This document shows, in pieces, positions 2,158 to 35,317 of a stretch of DNA of 64,000 nt (the stretch's first letter is position 1; each line of letters begins with the position of its first letter). The notes beneath the pieces were generated by a model. The model worked only from the letters and a program-made list of their open reading frames with translations, did no database searches and was not told the origin of the DNA. Made by a program: the position numbers and the translations under genes. Source of the stretch: Actinoplanes sp. L3-i22 (GTDB lineage: Bacteria > Actinomycetota > Actinomycetes > Mycobacteriales > Micromonosporaceae). The DNA is taken from NCBI RefSeq assembly GCF_019704555.1, contig NZ_AP024745.1:752501-816500 (forward strand), read 5' to 3'.

Positions 2158-3660
2158 GTGAGAACATCGATCCGGGCCGGACTGGCCGGCGTGGCGGCGG
2201 CCGCGGCCGCGCTCGGGGTGGCGGAACTGCTCGCGGTCTTCGCCGGAGCACGCTCGGCGCCGCTGGTCGCGGTCGGCGGCGTGGTCGTCGACCACGTGCC
2301 GCCCGGGGTGAAGGATTTCGCCATCGCGACGTTCGGCACCCACGACAAGACCGCGCTGCTCACCGGCACGGCGGTGCTGCTCGGGCTCTACGCGTACGGC
2401 GTCGGTGTGCTCGCCGCGCGCCGCCGGCCGTTCGCCCTGGCCGGGATCGCGCTGTTCGGCGTGGTCGGGATCGCGGCCGCGGTGACCCGCCCGGGCGCCG
2501 GCGTGGCGGCCGGGATCCCGTCGGCGGTCGGGGCGGCGCTGGCCGTCTGGGTGCTGCGGCACCTGCTCGGTCTGGAGGGGGCGTCGCACGAGACCGATCC
2601 GGAGGCCCGGCGCCGCTTCCTCAAGCAGGTCGGGATCGTCGCCGCGGTCGCGGTGGGCGGCGGGACGGCCGGCCGCTGGCTGACCTCGCGCGGCGCCGCC
2701 ACCGAGGCCCGGAAAGAGCTCACCCTCCCGGCGGCGAGCGAGCCACCCCCGGTGGTCCCGGCCGGCGCGCAGGTGCCGGGCGCGGTGCCGTACGTGACGC
2801 CGAACGCGGACTTCTACCGCATCGACACCGCCCTGATCTCCCCGCAGGTGGACCCGGCGAACTGGACCCTGAAGATCCACGGCATGGTCCGCAACCCGAT
2901 CGAGATCACCTGGGCGGAGCTGCTGCAGCGCCCGATGGTCGAGCGGTACGTGACGCTGGCCTGCGTCTCCAACGAGGTCGGCGGCGACCTGATCGGCAAC
3001 GCGCTCTGGCTGGGCACCCCGATCAAGGCGCTGCTCGACGAGGCGGATCCGCTGCCCGGGGCGGACCAGGTGGTGCAGCGCTCGACCGACGGCTGGACCT
3101 GTGGCACGCCGACCGCGGCGCTGCGCGACGGGCGGGACGCGCTGCTGGCGATCGGGATGAACGGCGAGCCGCTGCCGGTCGAGCACGGCTTCCCGGTCCG
3201 AATGATCGTTCCCGGACTGTACGGATACGTCTCGGCGTGCAAGTGGATCACCGAGATCGAGCTGACTCGATTCTCTGACTTCGATGCCTACTGGGTGCCG
3301 CGCGGCTGGTCGGCGCAGGGCCCGATCAAGACCGAGTCGCGGATCGACACACCCCGCGACCACGCGTCCCGCAAACCCGGCCCGGTCGCGGTGGCCGGCG
3401 TGGCCTGGGCTCAGCACCGGGGCATCGCCAAGGTCGAGGTGCAGGTCGACGACGGGGCCTGGGAGACGGCGTCGCTGGCGCCGGCGGTTTCCGACGACAC
3501 CTGGCGGCAGTGGAAGCACACCTGGACGGCGTCCTCCGGCGAGCACGTGCTGCGGGTCCGGGCGACCGATCTCGACGGCTACACGCAGACGTCCGACCTG
3601 GCCGATCCGGCCCCGGACGGGGCCACCGGATGGCACCAGGTGACGGTCTCCGTCAGCTAG
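2158..3660 (+). CDS. Membrane-anchored sulfite oxidase-family molybdopterin oxidoreductase
   Basis: 500 residues from the GTG at 2158; the open frame runs further upstream but overlaps the preceding gene. The N-terminus has four hydrophobic helices (about 5-25, 60-80, 88-106, 112-135) and a further hydrophobic stretch near 160-180. A molybdopterin-binding domain of the sulfite oxidase/nitrate reductase type spans about 200-395, with the conserved molybdenum-ligating cysteine in LACVSNEVGG (Cys269). The C-terminal 100 residues form the Ig-like dimerisation domain (Mo-co_dimer). The membrane-anchored form is common in actinobacteria; the physiological substrate is not established. It starts 29 bp after the peptidase gene. 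Confidence 0.88.
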   Translation: MRTSIRAGLAGVAAAAAALGVAELLAVFAGARSAPLVAVGGVVVDHVPPGVKDFAIATFGTHDKTALLTGTAVLLGLYAYGVGVLAARRRPFALAGIALFGVVGIAAAVTRPGAGVAAGIPSAVGAALAVWVLRHLLGLEGASHETDPEARRRFLKQVGIVAAVAVGGGTAGRWLTSRGAATEARKELTLPAASEPPPVVPAGAQVPGAVPYVTPNADFYRIDTALISPQVDPANWTLKIHGMVRNPIEITWAELLQRPMVERYVTLACVSNEVGGDLIGNALWLGTPIKALLDEADPLPGADQVVQRSTDGWTCGTPTAALRDGRDALLAIGMNGEPLPVEHGFPVRMIVPGLYGYVSACKWITEIELTRFSDFDAYWVPRGWSAQGPIKTESRIDTPRDHASRKPGPVAVAGVAWAQHRGIAKVEVQVDDGAWETASLAPAVSDDTWRQWKHTWTASSGEHVLRVRATDLDGYTQTSDLADPAPDGATGWHQVTVSVS

Positions 3661-31985: not shown

Positions 31986-32345
31986 CCGTAGCGCGTCTCT
32001 CGGCTCCGGCTGGTCCGCCGGGATGCCGTAGCGCGTCTCTCGGCTCCGGCTGGTCCGCCGGGATGGCGTAGCGCGTCTCTCGGCTCCGGCTGGTCCGCCG
32101 GGATGGCGTAGCGCGTCTCTCGGCTCCGGCTGGTCCGCCGGGATGGCGTAGCGCGTCTCTCGGCTCCGGCTGGTCCGCCGGGATGGCGTAGCGCGTCTCT
32201 CGGCTCCGGCTGGTCCGCCGGGATGGCGTAGCGCGTCTCTCGGCTCCGGCTGGTCCGCCGGGATGGCGTAGCGCGTCTCTCGGCTCCGGCTGGTCCGCCG
32301 GGATGCCGTAGCGCGTCTCTCGGCCCCGGCCGGTCCGCAGGGATG
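31986..32345. repeat. Tandem array of nine 40-bp units
   Basis: Units start every 40 bases from 31986 to 32306. Units two to seven are essentially identical, while the last is diverged. A unit reads GCGTAGCGCGTCTCTCGGCT then CCGGCTGGTCCGCCGGGATG; the second half can fold as CCGGC-TGGTCC-GCCGG. A partial tenth unit follows to about 32356. Units are directly adjacent with no spacers, so this is a minisatellite and not a CRISPR array. 32357-32467 holds nothing recognisable. Confidence 0.95.
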
Positions 32346-32467
32346 GCGCAGCGCGGTGAAGGCGCCGGCCGAGAGCCGCGACCGCTGCTGGGGGCCGGGT
32401 CGCGGCTGGTGGTGAGGGCCGTTTCGTGGTGATTGAGGCAGCTCCGCGGGCCGGCCGGGAGCGCGGG

Positions 32468-33076
32468 TTACAGGGGGCCGCGGCCGGAGCGGAGCAGGAG
32501 CAGGGCCACCTGGGTGCCGTCGGGGCCCAGCGCGGCACGGAAGCGGTCGACGATCTCGCGTTCGCGGGCCAGGACCAGGCGGGTGCCGCCGGAGGCCATC
32601 CGGGTCTTGCCGACCTCCTGGGAGAGGCGGGACCGCTCCTGCCAGAGGTCGATGATGGCCTGGTCGATCTCGTCGATGCGCTCGCGCATGGCACGGATCT
32701 CGTCGGCGGCCAGCGGGCGGCCCGCGCCGGTCGAGGCGTCCAGGGCGGCGGTGGCGGCGACGGACTTGTCGGTGACGATCCCCGGGTTAGCGGGAGCGTT
32801 GCCGCCGGTCGGGCCCGCGGGCGCGCCGGCGACGGCAGCCGAACTCGCGGGCACCTCGGCTGCCGCGGTCGGGCTCGCGGGGGCTGCGCGGTCGGCGGCG
32901 GCGAGGGTCGGGCTCGCGGAGGCGGCGGCGGCCGGGCTCGCGGAGGCGGCGGCGAGGGTCGGGCTCGCGGAGGTGGCGGCGGCCGGGCTCGCGGGGGCCG
33001 CGCTGTCCGGGGCGGGCGGATTCGGGGCGGCGGGGGAGTCGTCCGGGGTGGTCTGGGCCATCACGTCGGCGGTCAT
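32468..33076 (-). CDS. Chorismate mutase (AroQ type) with long Ala/Pro-rich N-terminus
   Basis: 202 residues. The AroQ helical domain is the last 85 residues (ADEIRAMRERIDEIDQAIIDLWQERSRLSQEVGKTRM, then REREIVDRFRAAL), matching the Arg/Lys/Glu pattern of the active site. It converts chorismate to prephenate for Phe and Tyr synthesis. The first 115 residues are Ala/Ser/Pro-rich with repeated ASPTLAAASASP-like units; no signal peptide is visible. The start at 33076 is chosen because AAGGAG lies seven bases upstream; the frame is open further but no longer form is plausible, as the upstream region is a leader with an attenuator (see 33130-33277). Regulation by Phe/Tyr-tRNA charging is inferred from that leader. 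Confidence 0.88.
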   Translation of the reverse strand: MTADVMAQTTPDDSPAAPNPPAPDSAAPASPAAATSASPTLAAASASPAAAASASPTLAAADRAAPASPTAAAEVPASSAAVAGAPAGPTGGNAPANPGIVTDKSVAATAALDASTGAGRPLAADEIRAMRERIDEIDQAIIDLWQERSRLSQEVGKTRMASGGTRLVLAREREIVDRFRAALGPDGTQVALLLLRSGRGPL

Positions 33077-33129
33077 GGTGTGCTCCTTGGGTGCTTTGTC
33101 GCTCCGGACAGCCCGGCCCGGGAAGCAAC

Positions 33130-33158
33130 AAGCCCCGGGCTGTGGAAGCCCGGGGCTT
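33130..33158 (-). terminator. Attenuator terminator hairpin upstream of chorismate mutase
   Basis: On the transcribed strand AAGCCCCGGGCT pairs perfectly with AGCCCGGGGCTT around a five-base loop, 12 bp in all. It lies 53 bases before the chorismate mutase start and 16 bases after the leader peptide stop. The first arm can instead pair with the leader segment at 33195-33204. Confidence 0.75.
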
Positions 33159-33277
33159 GAAGTAGGTCTGTCGTTCAGGGGCGACCTACGGCTGCCGGAC
33201 TTCCGGAACCGTAGTAAAAAAATCGCGCCTGCTGGATCACGCAGCCGAGTATGCCCCGCTCCCGGACCGCCCCGCAA
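33144..33277 (-). promoter_or_regulatory. Promoter and competing leader hairpins of the chorismate mutase attenuator
   Basis: Promoter: TTGCGG at 33272-33277 and CATACT at 33248-33253, 18 bases apart. Leader folds on the transcribed strand: CTACGG (33209-33214) with CCGTAG (33186-33191), a pause hairpin starting in the Tyr codons; GTAGGTC (33183-33189) with GACCTAC (33162-33168); and GGAAGTCCGG (33195-33204) with CCGGGCTTCC (33144-33153), ten pairs including one G-U. The last pairing takes the 5' arm and loop of the terminator and would be the antiterminator when a ribosome stalls on Phe/Tyr codons. Confidence 0.68.
33175..33240 (-). CDS. Leader peptide with Phe-Phe-Tyr-Tyr codons (attenuation control of chorismate mutase)
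   Basis: A 21-codon ORF starting MIQQARFFYYGSG and ending AVGRP, then TGA. Codons 7-10 are TTT TTT TAC TAC, the two amino acids made from prephenate. TTT is a rare Phe codon in this genome. There is no ribosome site, but CATACT (33248-33253, minus strand) lies seven bases before the GTG and TTGCGG 18 bases further up, so transcription should start at the GTG itself and the mRNA would be leaderless, as for some other actinobacterial leader peptides. Its position just before two competing hairpins supports a translated attenuator. Confidence 0.78.
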   Translation of the reverse strand: MIQQARFFYYGSGSPAAVGRP

Positions 33278-33420: not shown

Positions 33421-33454
33421 AAACGGCCCGGCGCGAAGAAGCGCCGGGCCGTCG
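33421..33454 (-). terminator. Terminator of the 5'-nucleotidase gene
   Basis: A perfect 12-bp stem ACGGCCCGGCGC/GCGCCGGGCCGT with a GAAGAA loop, just after the stop of the nucleotidase and followed on the transcribed strand by TTTTCTTCTT. It separates that gene from the chorismate mutase leader. Confidence 0.88.
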
Positions 33455-33472: not shown

Positions 33473-35317
33473 TCAGGGGGTGGTCGTGATGCGGTTGGCC
33501 GGACCGGGGGCAATGGTGCCCGTGGCGAGGTAGGCGGTGAGCGCGTCGATGTCGAAACCGGGCGCGGTGACGACCTTGGCGGGGTCGACGACCAGGTTGC
33601 CGAAGCCGTCCCCACCCGCGGCCAGGAAGTTGTTGATGGTGACCTGGTAGGTGGCGGCCGGGTCGATCGGCGTGCCGTTCAGGGCGAGGTTGCTGACCCG
33701 CGAGCCGAGCGCGGCGGAGGCGCTCCAGGTGTAGGTGAAGCCGGCCGAGACCTGGAGGATCTTCGTGGTGGTCTGCCCGGAGTAACCGGCGAACTGCTGC
33801 TCCAGCACGCTCTTGAGCTGCGCGCCGGTGAGCGGCTCGGTGGCGACCAGGTTGTTGAACGGCTGAACGGTGAACGCCTCGCCGTAGGTGACCTGGCCGT
33901 AGGCCTCGCCACCGGTCGACTGGTCGGCGTCGAAGTCGGCGCGGATGCCGCCCGGGTTCATCAGGGCGATCTGCGCGCCGGCGGACTTGGTGTAGGACAG
34001 CTGGGCGTCCGCGATGACGTCGCCGAGCGGGCTCTCACCGGCCGCGGTGTTGGTGCGCACGATGTCACCGGTGATGCTGCCGACCACCTTGTTGGCGAGC
34101 GGGGCGACGGCGACCCGGTACTTGTCGGCGACCTTCTTCGCGGCGGCGTCGACGGTGGCCGGGTTCTTCAGGTAGACGCCGGCCGCGTCCTTCTTCCAGC
34201 CGCCGTTGCCGTCCGGGACGCCGTTCTCCACGATCACGTTCTTCGCGGTGATCTCGGCGAACTTACCGGTGCGCTTGTCCAGCGAGTAGTCGATGTCGGT
34301 GATCAGCTGGCCGTTGGTGCCGGCGCTGGTCACCACGGTGTCCGTGCCGGTCTTGTTCGGCAGCTTGCAGCTGTAGAACCGGTGCGTGTGCCCGGAGACG
34401 ACCACGCCGATCTCCGGGTTCAGGCCCTTGACGATGTCGACCACCGGGCCGGTGAAGTTCACGCAGTCCGAGACGCCCGGGGTGGGGGTCGCCGAGCCCT
34501 GCGCGCCGCCCTCGTGCAGCAGCAGGACCTGCGCCTTGACCCCGAACAGCTTGAGGATGTTGCTCCACTTGTTCGCGGTCACGATCTCGTCGGTGAAGTG
34601 CACGTTCTTGATGCCGGCCGGGTTGACGATGCCGGCCGTGCCCTCCAGCGTCAGGCCGATGAAGCCGACCGGCACGCCCTTGACGTACTTGATCTCGATG
34701 GGCGGCAGGATCGGCAGCCCGGTCTTGTTGTTGATCGTGTTCGCGGCCAGGTAGGTGAACTTCGCCCCGCGGTACGGGTCGCCGTCCTGGCAGCCGTCGA
34801 CCGGGTGACACCCGCCGCGCTGGATCCGGATCAGCTCGTCCACGCCCTCGTCGAACTCGTGGTTGCCCACCGAGCTGACCTGCAGGCCGATCGTGTTCAT
34901 CAGCTCGATCGTCGGCTCGTCGTGGAACGCCGCGCTGACCAGCGGGGACGCGCCGATCAGGTCGCCGGCCCCGGCGGTGATGGTCGCCCGGCCCTCGCTC
35001 GTGGCCTCGGCGCGCAGCTTCTTCAGGTACGTCGCGAGGTACTCCACCCCACCGGCCGGGGTGCTGGTGCCCCCGGCGTTGACCACCGCGCCGCTGCCGA
35101 TCGGCGGGTCGATCGCGCCGTGGAAGTCGTTGTAGCTGAGGATCTGACCCTTGACCAGGGCCGATCCGTGCGACGCGCCGTAGCTGGCGGTGACCGGCGT
35201 GAACTCGGCGGGCGGCGCGGCGGCCGCGGACTGGGCGGCGGGCATCGCGGACAGCGCGCCCACGACGGCAAGGGCGACGGCTGGTACGCCGATACGCCGC
35301 CGAAGCGGAGAAGTCAT
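33473..35317 (-). CDS. Secreted 5'-nucleotidase / UshA-like metallophosphoesterase
   Basis: 614 residues. A signal peptide covers about 1-34. The metallophosphoesterase domain shows YNDFHGA (metal ligands Asp64 and His66), VGNHEFDEG and SGHTHRFY, the standard two-metal set, although the first motif has NDFHG where many have DTHG. The C-terminal 5'-nucleotidase domain (about 370-600) contains NPGGIRADF and the substrate-sandwiching aromatic region QPFNNLVATEPLTG. It probably dephosphorylates extracellular nucleotides for phosphate or nucleoside salvage. Monocistronic, ending in a strong hairpin, divergent from pcrA. Confidence 0.93.
   Translation of the reverse strand: MTSPLRRRIGVPAVALAVVGALSAMPAAQSAAAAPPAEFTPVTASYGASHGSALVKGQILSYNDFHGAIDPPIGSGAVVNAGGTSTPAGGVEYLATYLKKLRAEATSEGRATITAGAGDLIGASPLVSAAFHDEPTIELMNTIGLQVSSVGNHEFDEGVDELIRIQRGGCHPVDGCQDGDPYRGAKFTYLAANTINNKTGLPILPPIEIKYVKGVPVGFIGLTLEGTAGIVNPAGIKNVHFTDEIVTANKWSNILKLFGVKAQVLLLHEGGAQGSATPTPGVSDCVNFTGPVVDIVKGLNPEIGVVVSGHTHRFYSCKLPNKTGTDTVVTSAGTNGQLITDIDYSLDKRTGKFAEITAKNVIVENGVPDGNGGWKKDAAGVYLKNPATVDAAAKKVADKYRVAVAPLANKVVGSITGDIVRTNTAAGESPLGDVIADAQLSYTKSAGAQIALMNPGGIRADFDADQSTGGEAYGQVTYGEAFTVQPFNNLVATEPLTGAQLKSVLEQQFAGYSGQTTTKILQVSAGFTYTWSASAALGSRVSNLALNGTPIDPAATYQVTINNFLAAGGDGFGNLVVDPAKVVTAPGFDIDALTAYLATGTIAPGPANRITTTP

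Follow-up and report, generated by a model that had tools for sequence, protein, structure and literature searches.

Chorismate mutase represents the branch point to phenylalanine and tyrosine, and in antibiotic-producing actinomycetes the Phe/Tyr branch supplies aromatic building blocks for natural products. Upstream of the chorismate mutase gene of Actinoplanes sp. L3-i22, a short open reading frame with consecutive Phe and Tyr codons is followed by a hairpin, raising the question whether this gene is controlled by attenuation. The locus was analyzed within a window of 64,000 nucleotides, i.e., the whole stretch of DNA under study, and compared to related genomes. Based on the results, the element is interpreted as a ribosome-mediated transcription attenuator by which chorismate mutase expression would be set according to the supply of charged Phe-tRNA and, probably less strongly, of charged Tyr-tRNA; a probability of roughly 0.86 is assigned to this reading.

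Layout of the leader region

The identity of the downstream gene was deduced from protein family models. Its product matched the NCBIfam model NF005894 with 105.4 bits (cut-off 73) and also scored above the cut-off of TIGR01808, indicating a chorismate mutase of the monofunctional type of high-GC Gram-positive bacteria. The match to PF01817 likewise exceeded its cut-off and was the only one in the whole 12.0-Mb genome. Among solved structures, entry 5hub (a chorismate mutase) and Rv0948c matched the gene product best. The N-terminal extension of the enzyme is encoded by a degenerate Ala/Ser/Pro repeat with 51-base and 24-base units (32800-33002); as judged by eye, it is absent at the related loci L002 and L004 and different at L003. 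Moreover, a tandem array (31987-32355; 40-base unit, 9.2 copies, 97% matches) is located approximately 110 bases 3' of the gene.

The features identified upstream of the gene are summarized in Table 1. The original prediction comprised promoter hexamers, a GTG start codon 7 bases past the -10 hexamer CATACT (33240, minus strand), a 21-codon ORF and the codon series TTT TTT TAC TAC, all of which were borne out base for base. The ORF, whose translation is predicted, thus carries a run of codons for product amino acids of the pathway (FFYY). TTGCGG represents a weak -35 hexamer, and a generic promoter and terminator scan called neither the leader promoter nor the leader terminator. As judged from the sequence, the transcript is probably leaderless, with the RNA starting at or next to the GTG. 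This assumption is supported by the spacing at the 69 aligned loci of the family, since a -10 hexamer of the form [TC]A[TC]A.T ends 6 bases (16 loci) or 7 bases (52 loci) 5' of the leader start at 68 of them; in 61 of the 69 loci, this hexamer is CATACT. Furthermore, the neighboring gene on the upstream side (33473-35317), which looks 5'-nucleotidase-like by eye, is directly followed by a terminator-like hairpin of 13 pairs (33422-33453, minus strand), and the leader therefore probably forms a transcription unit of its own.

Table 1. Features of the chorismate mutase leader locus, given as positions within the window.
Feature	Position	Strand	Sequence or details	Basis
Promoter-like pair	33248..33277	minus	TTGCGG 33277-33272, 18-base spacer, CATACT 33253-33248	
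Leader ORF	33240-33175	minus	VIQQARFFYYGSGSPAAVGRP, 21 codons plus TGA	sequence, conservation in relatives
Control codons	33222-33211	minus	TTT TTT TAC TAC (Phe Phe Tyr Tyr)	sequence, relatives
Default hairpin P1	33186..33214	minus	CTACGG..CCGG (33214-33203) pairs with CCGG..CCGTAG (33198-33186)	
Antiterminator outer helix, 5' strand	33204-33195	minus	GGAAGTCCGG	complementarity, paired changes
Antiterminator inner helix P2, 5' strand	33189-33183	minus	GTAGGTC	complementarity, paired changes
Antiterminator inner helix P2, 3' strand	33168-33162	minus	GACCTAC	complementarity, paired changes
Antiterminator outer helix, 3' strand	33153-33144	minus	CCGGGCTTCC, shared with the terminator	
Terminator hairpin	33129..33159	minus	CAAGCCCCGGGCT...AGCCCGGGGCTTG, arms 33159-33147 and 33141-33129, 13 pairs including the outer C-G	
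Chorismate mutase gene	32468..33076	minus	monofunctional AroQ type, Ala/Pro-rich N-terminal extension	

In the region 33240-33077, the predicted fold was more stable than that of each of 200 dinucleotide shuffles (z -5.36), and none of 4227 Rfam families matched the window at or above its gathering score. The terminator hairpin was confirmed, its stem being one pair longer than the 12 bp given originally if the outer C-G is counted. It is located between the leader ORF and the gene, approximately 50 bases 5' of the chorismate mutase start, and shows paired changes in relatives (see below); the U-tract following it is poor (CTTGTTGCTT). The ten-base complementarity between the leader and the terminator was found as described, with nine Watson-Crick pairs and one U-G pair between GGAAGTCCGG and CCGGGCTTCC. 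This corresponds to the outer helix of the antiterminator and to the one antiterminator pairing envisaged at first; the inner helix P2, which is nested within it, and the default hairpin P1, whose 5' arm starts within the Tyr codons, had been overlooked. Complementarity and paired changes indicate that the antiterminator uses the 5' arm of the terminator, the two structures being mutually exclusive.

Conservation of the leader across genomes

A chorismate mutase match was obtained for all 61 searched genomes of family f1 (Micromonosporaceae), that of G005 being weak, and in 59 of them the leader precedes the enzyme. The two genomes lacking it are G005, which is 69% complete, and G030, which encodes two enzymes preceded by degenerate ORFs only. 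At the loci concerned (L057 and L062), short ORFs with scattered Phe and Tyr codons and a similar hairpin were observed without a clear codon run; these leaders have possibly decayed or been re-targeted. Paralogous chorismate mutases in G044 and G058 are not preceded by a leader. Loci of Actinoplanes (L002, L003) and Paractinoplanes (L004) carry a closely similar leader 5' of the same gene, and the consensus peptide of the family reads V..Q.RFYFYYGSGSPAAVGRA.

Beyond the family, 79 genomes from other families of the order had a chorismate mutase match. A Phe/Tyr leader was recognized in 53 of the 59 examined, 45 by a strict rule (short ORF with at least 3 Phe/Tyr per 5 codons) and 8 by a relaxed rule, one relaxed match located 596 bases off being counted as not found. 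All six genomes without a leader belong to family f7, where it is recognizable in 6 of 12 genomes and missing in the other 6. Leader motifs in these families include ...FFYGYRxPVPV..., FYYGHRVPVSV and similar peptides. One f7 leader (L094) originates from a genome whose enzyme aligns closely with residues 7-82 of Rv0948c, and the genome is therefore probably that of a Mycobacterium. Outside the order, 24 genomes had an enzyme match, of which 18 were examined (two yielded no locus and four could not be oriented); Phe/Tyr leaders were detected in nine of these 18, including all seven of family f29 (M..TTFLFTYGNRPTGCHGRAA), which we infer to be Streptomyces. In one search set, 9 of 101 genomes lacked a chorismate mutase match. 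By comparison, 3140 mononucleotide-shuffled upstream regions gave 16 strict and 25 relaxed matches, and 68 of the 69 aligned family loci followed the strict rule, L017 following the relaxed rule only. The original prediction made its case depend on whether relatives keep the Phe/Tyr codons and hairpins; they do, also beyond the genera listed there.

The family alignment (A1) comprises 69 leaders from the 59 family genomes, the three named loci and seven further family genomes; duplicates (L005, L074, L078 and L081, of L001, L035, L063 and L067, respectively) and paralogous loci (L057, L062, L064, L066) were left out. The terminator, stall and strand-swap analyses over relatives additionally omit the duplicate L124 and the doubtful leaders L082, L110 and L113; in the survey tallies, L082 and L113 are counted as found and L110 is not. 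A covariance model built from the 69 leaders gave one strong match (at least 66 bits) per genome in 59 of 59 genomes, at most 600 bases from the enzyme match, demonstrating single copy and position rather than independent discovery, because the same leaders entered the model. In the window's own genome, the model, run with the stricter filters of Infernal, returned one match and hence no second Phe/Tyr element of this shape; when the sequence immediately 5' of its class II DAHP synthase gene was inspected by eye, no such leader was recognized either.

Weak additional model matches in four relatives were identified as leaders with Thr codon runs (L166:985-1107, L169:524-650, L173:510-630 and L167, minus strand, 2976-3062), encoding peptides such as CTTTPGSPGV and STTTPGFPGV. 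These loci carry a hairpin of related design 5' of a threonyl-tRNA synthetase gene; the gene behind the L166 leader exceeds the cut-off of TIGR00418 (threonine--tRNA ligase), and those of L167, L169 and L173 were named by likeness. Examination of the weak matches L168, L170, L171, L172, L176 and L177 revealed no Phe/Tyr leader.

Each of 129 leaders examined, all preselected by the Phe/Tyr rule, contains at least one Phe and at least one Tyr codon. Within the run, Phe and Tyr frequently replace each other, and Thr, Ser or Gly interrupts some runs. Phe is encoded by UUU at 104 of 141 positions in the 69 family leaders and at 72 of 111 in the 60 others, compared to 14 of 461 in window genes, the reference being 40 gene-like ORFs chosen by codon-position GC content and not by annotation. 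For Tyr, the enrichment of UAU is mild (26 of 161 in leaders versus 30 of 388 in window genes). The rare UUU codon may make the sensor sharper, or it may prevent base pairing in this region; the data fit both possibilities.

This conserved short ORF, which is probably translated, could also encode a small protein acting independently, next to a terminator that is constitutive or linked to Rho. Seven relatives (L003, L041, L056, L060, L063, L065, L067) argue against this explanation, which is considered very improbable: indels shift the frame of their peptide tails, altering or abolishing them, while the Phe/Tyr run remains in the reading frame of the start codon and the strands of P1, P2 and the antiterminator are largely kept. 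The tail of the leader therefore appears to be conserved as RNA, favoring a role of the RNA and the control codons over that of a peptide product.

Paired changes, stall simulation and the proposed switch

Over the 69 aligned sequences, 96.8% of cells in P1 and the terminator are paired. Eight pairs of these stems changed on both sides (shuffle mean 3.1), corresponding to 30 such cells (shuffle mean 6.3), counts which, like those below, are inflated by the relatedness of the sequences; none of 500 shuffles was as high on any of five measures. In P1, 4 of 11 pairs show changes on both sides, and at the base of the terminator AU, CG, UA and GC pairs replace one another. For the two nested helices of the antiterminator, 91.5% of cells are paired and 22 changed on both sides compared to a shuffle mean of 6.9 (0 of 500 shuffles as high in either case); only 5 pairs had changed on both sides, compared to a shuffle mean of 3.1, and 32 of 500 shuffles were as high.

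Most informative are columns 71:135 and 72:134, with ten and seven of the both-sided antiterminator changes, respectively, which link the P1 loop, containing columns 71 and 72, to the inner end of the terminator. As the scored terminator stem does not include column 135, neither competing stem accounts for the ten changed cells at 71:135; column 134 is also a terminator column. In an underpowered tree-based test of single pairs, 71:135 changed the same way in a mean of 1.8 of 7 independent pairs and the opposite way in 0.0 (p 0.5), and the mean for 72:134 was 0.5 of 4, a trend in the expected direction but far from significance. Strand swaps gave further evidence for the pairing. Between families, matched antiterminator strands reached -17.28 kcal/mol compared to -15.23 for permuted strands (18 of 10000 permutations as good), and within the family -19.70 compared to -18.56 (0 of 2000); in 7 of 16 families, matched strands were no better than both kinds of swap. 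Between families, the antiterminator sequence varies and the pairing tends to persist.

These pairings also bear on translational control, in which the leader ribosome or a hairpin would govern access to the ribosome-binding site; the accessible part of PMC13236596 mentions that cysteine genes of M. smegmatis are subject to translational attenuation. At the present locus, the hairpin is situated well upstream of the start codon, the AAGGAG preceding the gene (33088-33083) is unpaired in the predicted fold, and the conserved pairing has the terminator arm as its 3' strand. Control at the level of translation is accordingly judged improbable.

The effect of a stalled ribosome was simulated on the RNA preceding the 3' arm of the terminator, with the ribosome covering up to 15 bases beyond the first P-site base. 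For the window, the calculated energy was -28.8 kcal/mol with the stall on the Phe codons, -24.8 and -19.8 with the stall on the first and last Tyr codon, respectively, and -4.4 with the ribosome at the stop codon; the same simulation of E. coli trpL gave -15.6 when stalled and -4.4 at the stop codon. The number of terminator-arm pairs sequestered upstream was 12.9 at the first Phe/Tyr codon versus 0.8 at the stop codon in the 69 relatives, and 12.3 versus 1.4 in the 60 others. Shuffled GC-rich spacers sequester 8.3 and 9.3 pairs on average, respectively, and base composition thus explains part of the effect; taken singly, most loci did not differ significantly from their own shuffles, p<=0.05 being reached by 14 of the 69 relatives and 9 of the 60 others. 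For L026 and L050, the automatic finder picked a hairpin further downstream as the terminator, which spoils their simulation rows. The pairs sequestered by shuffled GC-rich sequence would also be expected if a GC-rich intergenic stretch had acquired an ORF and complementarities by accident. Such a coincidence can be dismissed for practical purposes, since the leader is conserved in 59 of 61 family genomes and in other families, and its stems show paired changes.

At equilibrium, the terminator was predicted for every stall position with a probability of 0.98-0.99, implying that the switch must be kinetic. E. coli trpL also folded into its terminator at the five positions tried, and the equilibrium objection is hence not peculiar to the chorismate mutase leader. 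The antiterminator interpretation originally offered is supported in this form, with two nested helices in place of one and a kinetic trap deduced from fold calculation.

From these features we infer the following course of events for the attenuator. RNA polymerase would start at or next to the GTG, and a ribosome would load immediately on the leaderless message. If Phe and Tyr are ample, the ribosome should reach the TGA and cover the 5' strand of P2 and part of its 3' strand; with P2 covered, the terminator would form and transcription would end ahead of the gene. A ribosome stalled on the Phe/Tyr codons would instead cover the 5' strand of P1, and the freed segment could pair first via P2 (GTAGGTC/GACCTAC) and then, via GGAAGTCCGG, with the terminator's 5' arm as it emerges. 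This pairing would precede synthesis of the terminator's 3' arm and allow the polymerase to read through. If no ribosome is loaded, P1 is expected to form and to block P2, again resulting in the terminator.

Sensing of Tyr is less sure than that of Phe, because the model leaves only -19.8 kcal/mol, and not -28.8, for a stall at the last Tyr codon, and because Tyr-Gly could be kept for the RNA stem. In a narrower form of the attenuator, Phe-tRNA would be the only signal and the Tyr codons would be retained because UAC-GG constitutes the 5' strand of the default hairpin. The same energy difference is in line with this narrower form, as are the strong enrichment of UUU next to the mild enrichment of UAU and the accessible part of PMC11802643, according to which, for C. 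glutamicum aroR, transcription increased under Phe limitation and Tyr availability had no effect. On the other hand, many relatives also have Tyr at run positions 5' of the stem strand (RFYFYY, RYYFFY, AYFYY). Sensing of Phe alone is a possibility to be taken seriously, although we consider it doubtful.

Returning to an attenuator that reads both amino acids, a more comprehensive picture can tentatively be drawn, for which we would claim somewhat less than even odds. One ancient chorismate mutase attenuator of high-GC actinomycetes may predate the split of the order into families and also occur in Streptomyces-like genomes. A single codon run would read two tRNAs, with a Tyr codon doubling as a strand of the default hairpin, such that the gene would open completely under Phe starvation and in part under Tyr starvation. 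In the tail, the role as RNA would come before that as peptide, and sensitivity would be tuned by the rare UUU codon.

Relation to known attenuators and significance

The aroR-aroF attenuator of Corynebacterium glutamicum was reportedly described as leaderless by Neshat et al. in 2014. Like the leader studied here, it is an actinobacterial leader with Phe and Tyr codons 5' of a gene for aromatic amino acid biosynthesis: aroR, the leader of aroF, has Phe-Tyr-Phe codons according to the accessible portions of PMC4046766 and PMC11802643. Its target encodes DAHP synthase instead of chorismate mutase. In E. coli, pheL precedes, by annotation, the gene for a fused chorismate mutase/prephenate dehydratase, and attenuation of pheL-pheA responds to charged Phe-tRNA (PMC11802643, accessible portion). 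Both pheL and the leader of the window are Phe-rich leaders 5' of a gene with chorismate mutase activity. Of the two, pheL contains seven Phe codons and none for Tyr, whereas the leader of the window combines codons for both amino acids and is probably leaderless. The enzyme of pheA is fused, whereas the chorismate mutase of the window is monofunctional.

A 2017 publication by Wolf et al. is said to be an RNA-seq study of Actinoplanes. With regard to leader peptides, Wolf et al. 2017 is cited in PMC8079986, which lists leaderless attenuators of Streptomyces lividans, including trpL1, leuL2 and thrL (Table 4 therein, as far as accessible). These resemble the present element in having a short ORF at the transcript end, control codons and hairpins, and thrL, located before thrS, resembles the Thr leaders matched weakly by the covariance model. 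In contrast to the present case, neither a Phe/Tyr leader nor a chorismate mutase target appears in the accessible part of that table, and the words 'chorismate', 'phenylalanine' and 'tyrosine' are absent from the accessible text. Seliverstov et al. 2005 (PMC1262725, accessible part) described trp attenuators in Corynebacterium and Streptomyces, whose classical scheme of leader, antiterminator and terminator is also recognized here. The same portion of that survey states that neither phenylalanine nor tyrosine operons of Actinobacteria were preceded by conserved RNA structures, and does not contain the word 'chorismate'.

Searches of the open PMC literature yielded no paper recognized as reporting an actinobacterial attenuator before chorismate mutase, and a prior mention is possible. 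The original prediction knew of no described chorismate mutase attenuator of this kind. The instance is apparently undescribed and unusually widespread; the type of device, however, has precedents, since the mechanism is already known from pheL-pheA of E. coli and aroR-aroF of C. glutamicum. It seems to be new that chorismate mutase is the target, that two tRNAs are probably read and that the element occurs so broadly.

Most of the genomes examined within one order conserve the leader, and so do some beyond that order, in contrast to the earlier survey of Actinobacteria (PMC1262725, accessible part). The element is simple to test experimentally. It would provide a Phe/Tyr sensor part for producer strains, and it would represent a clear case in which the RNA structure to be formed shapes the sequence of a leader peptide.
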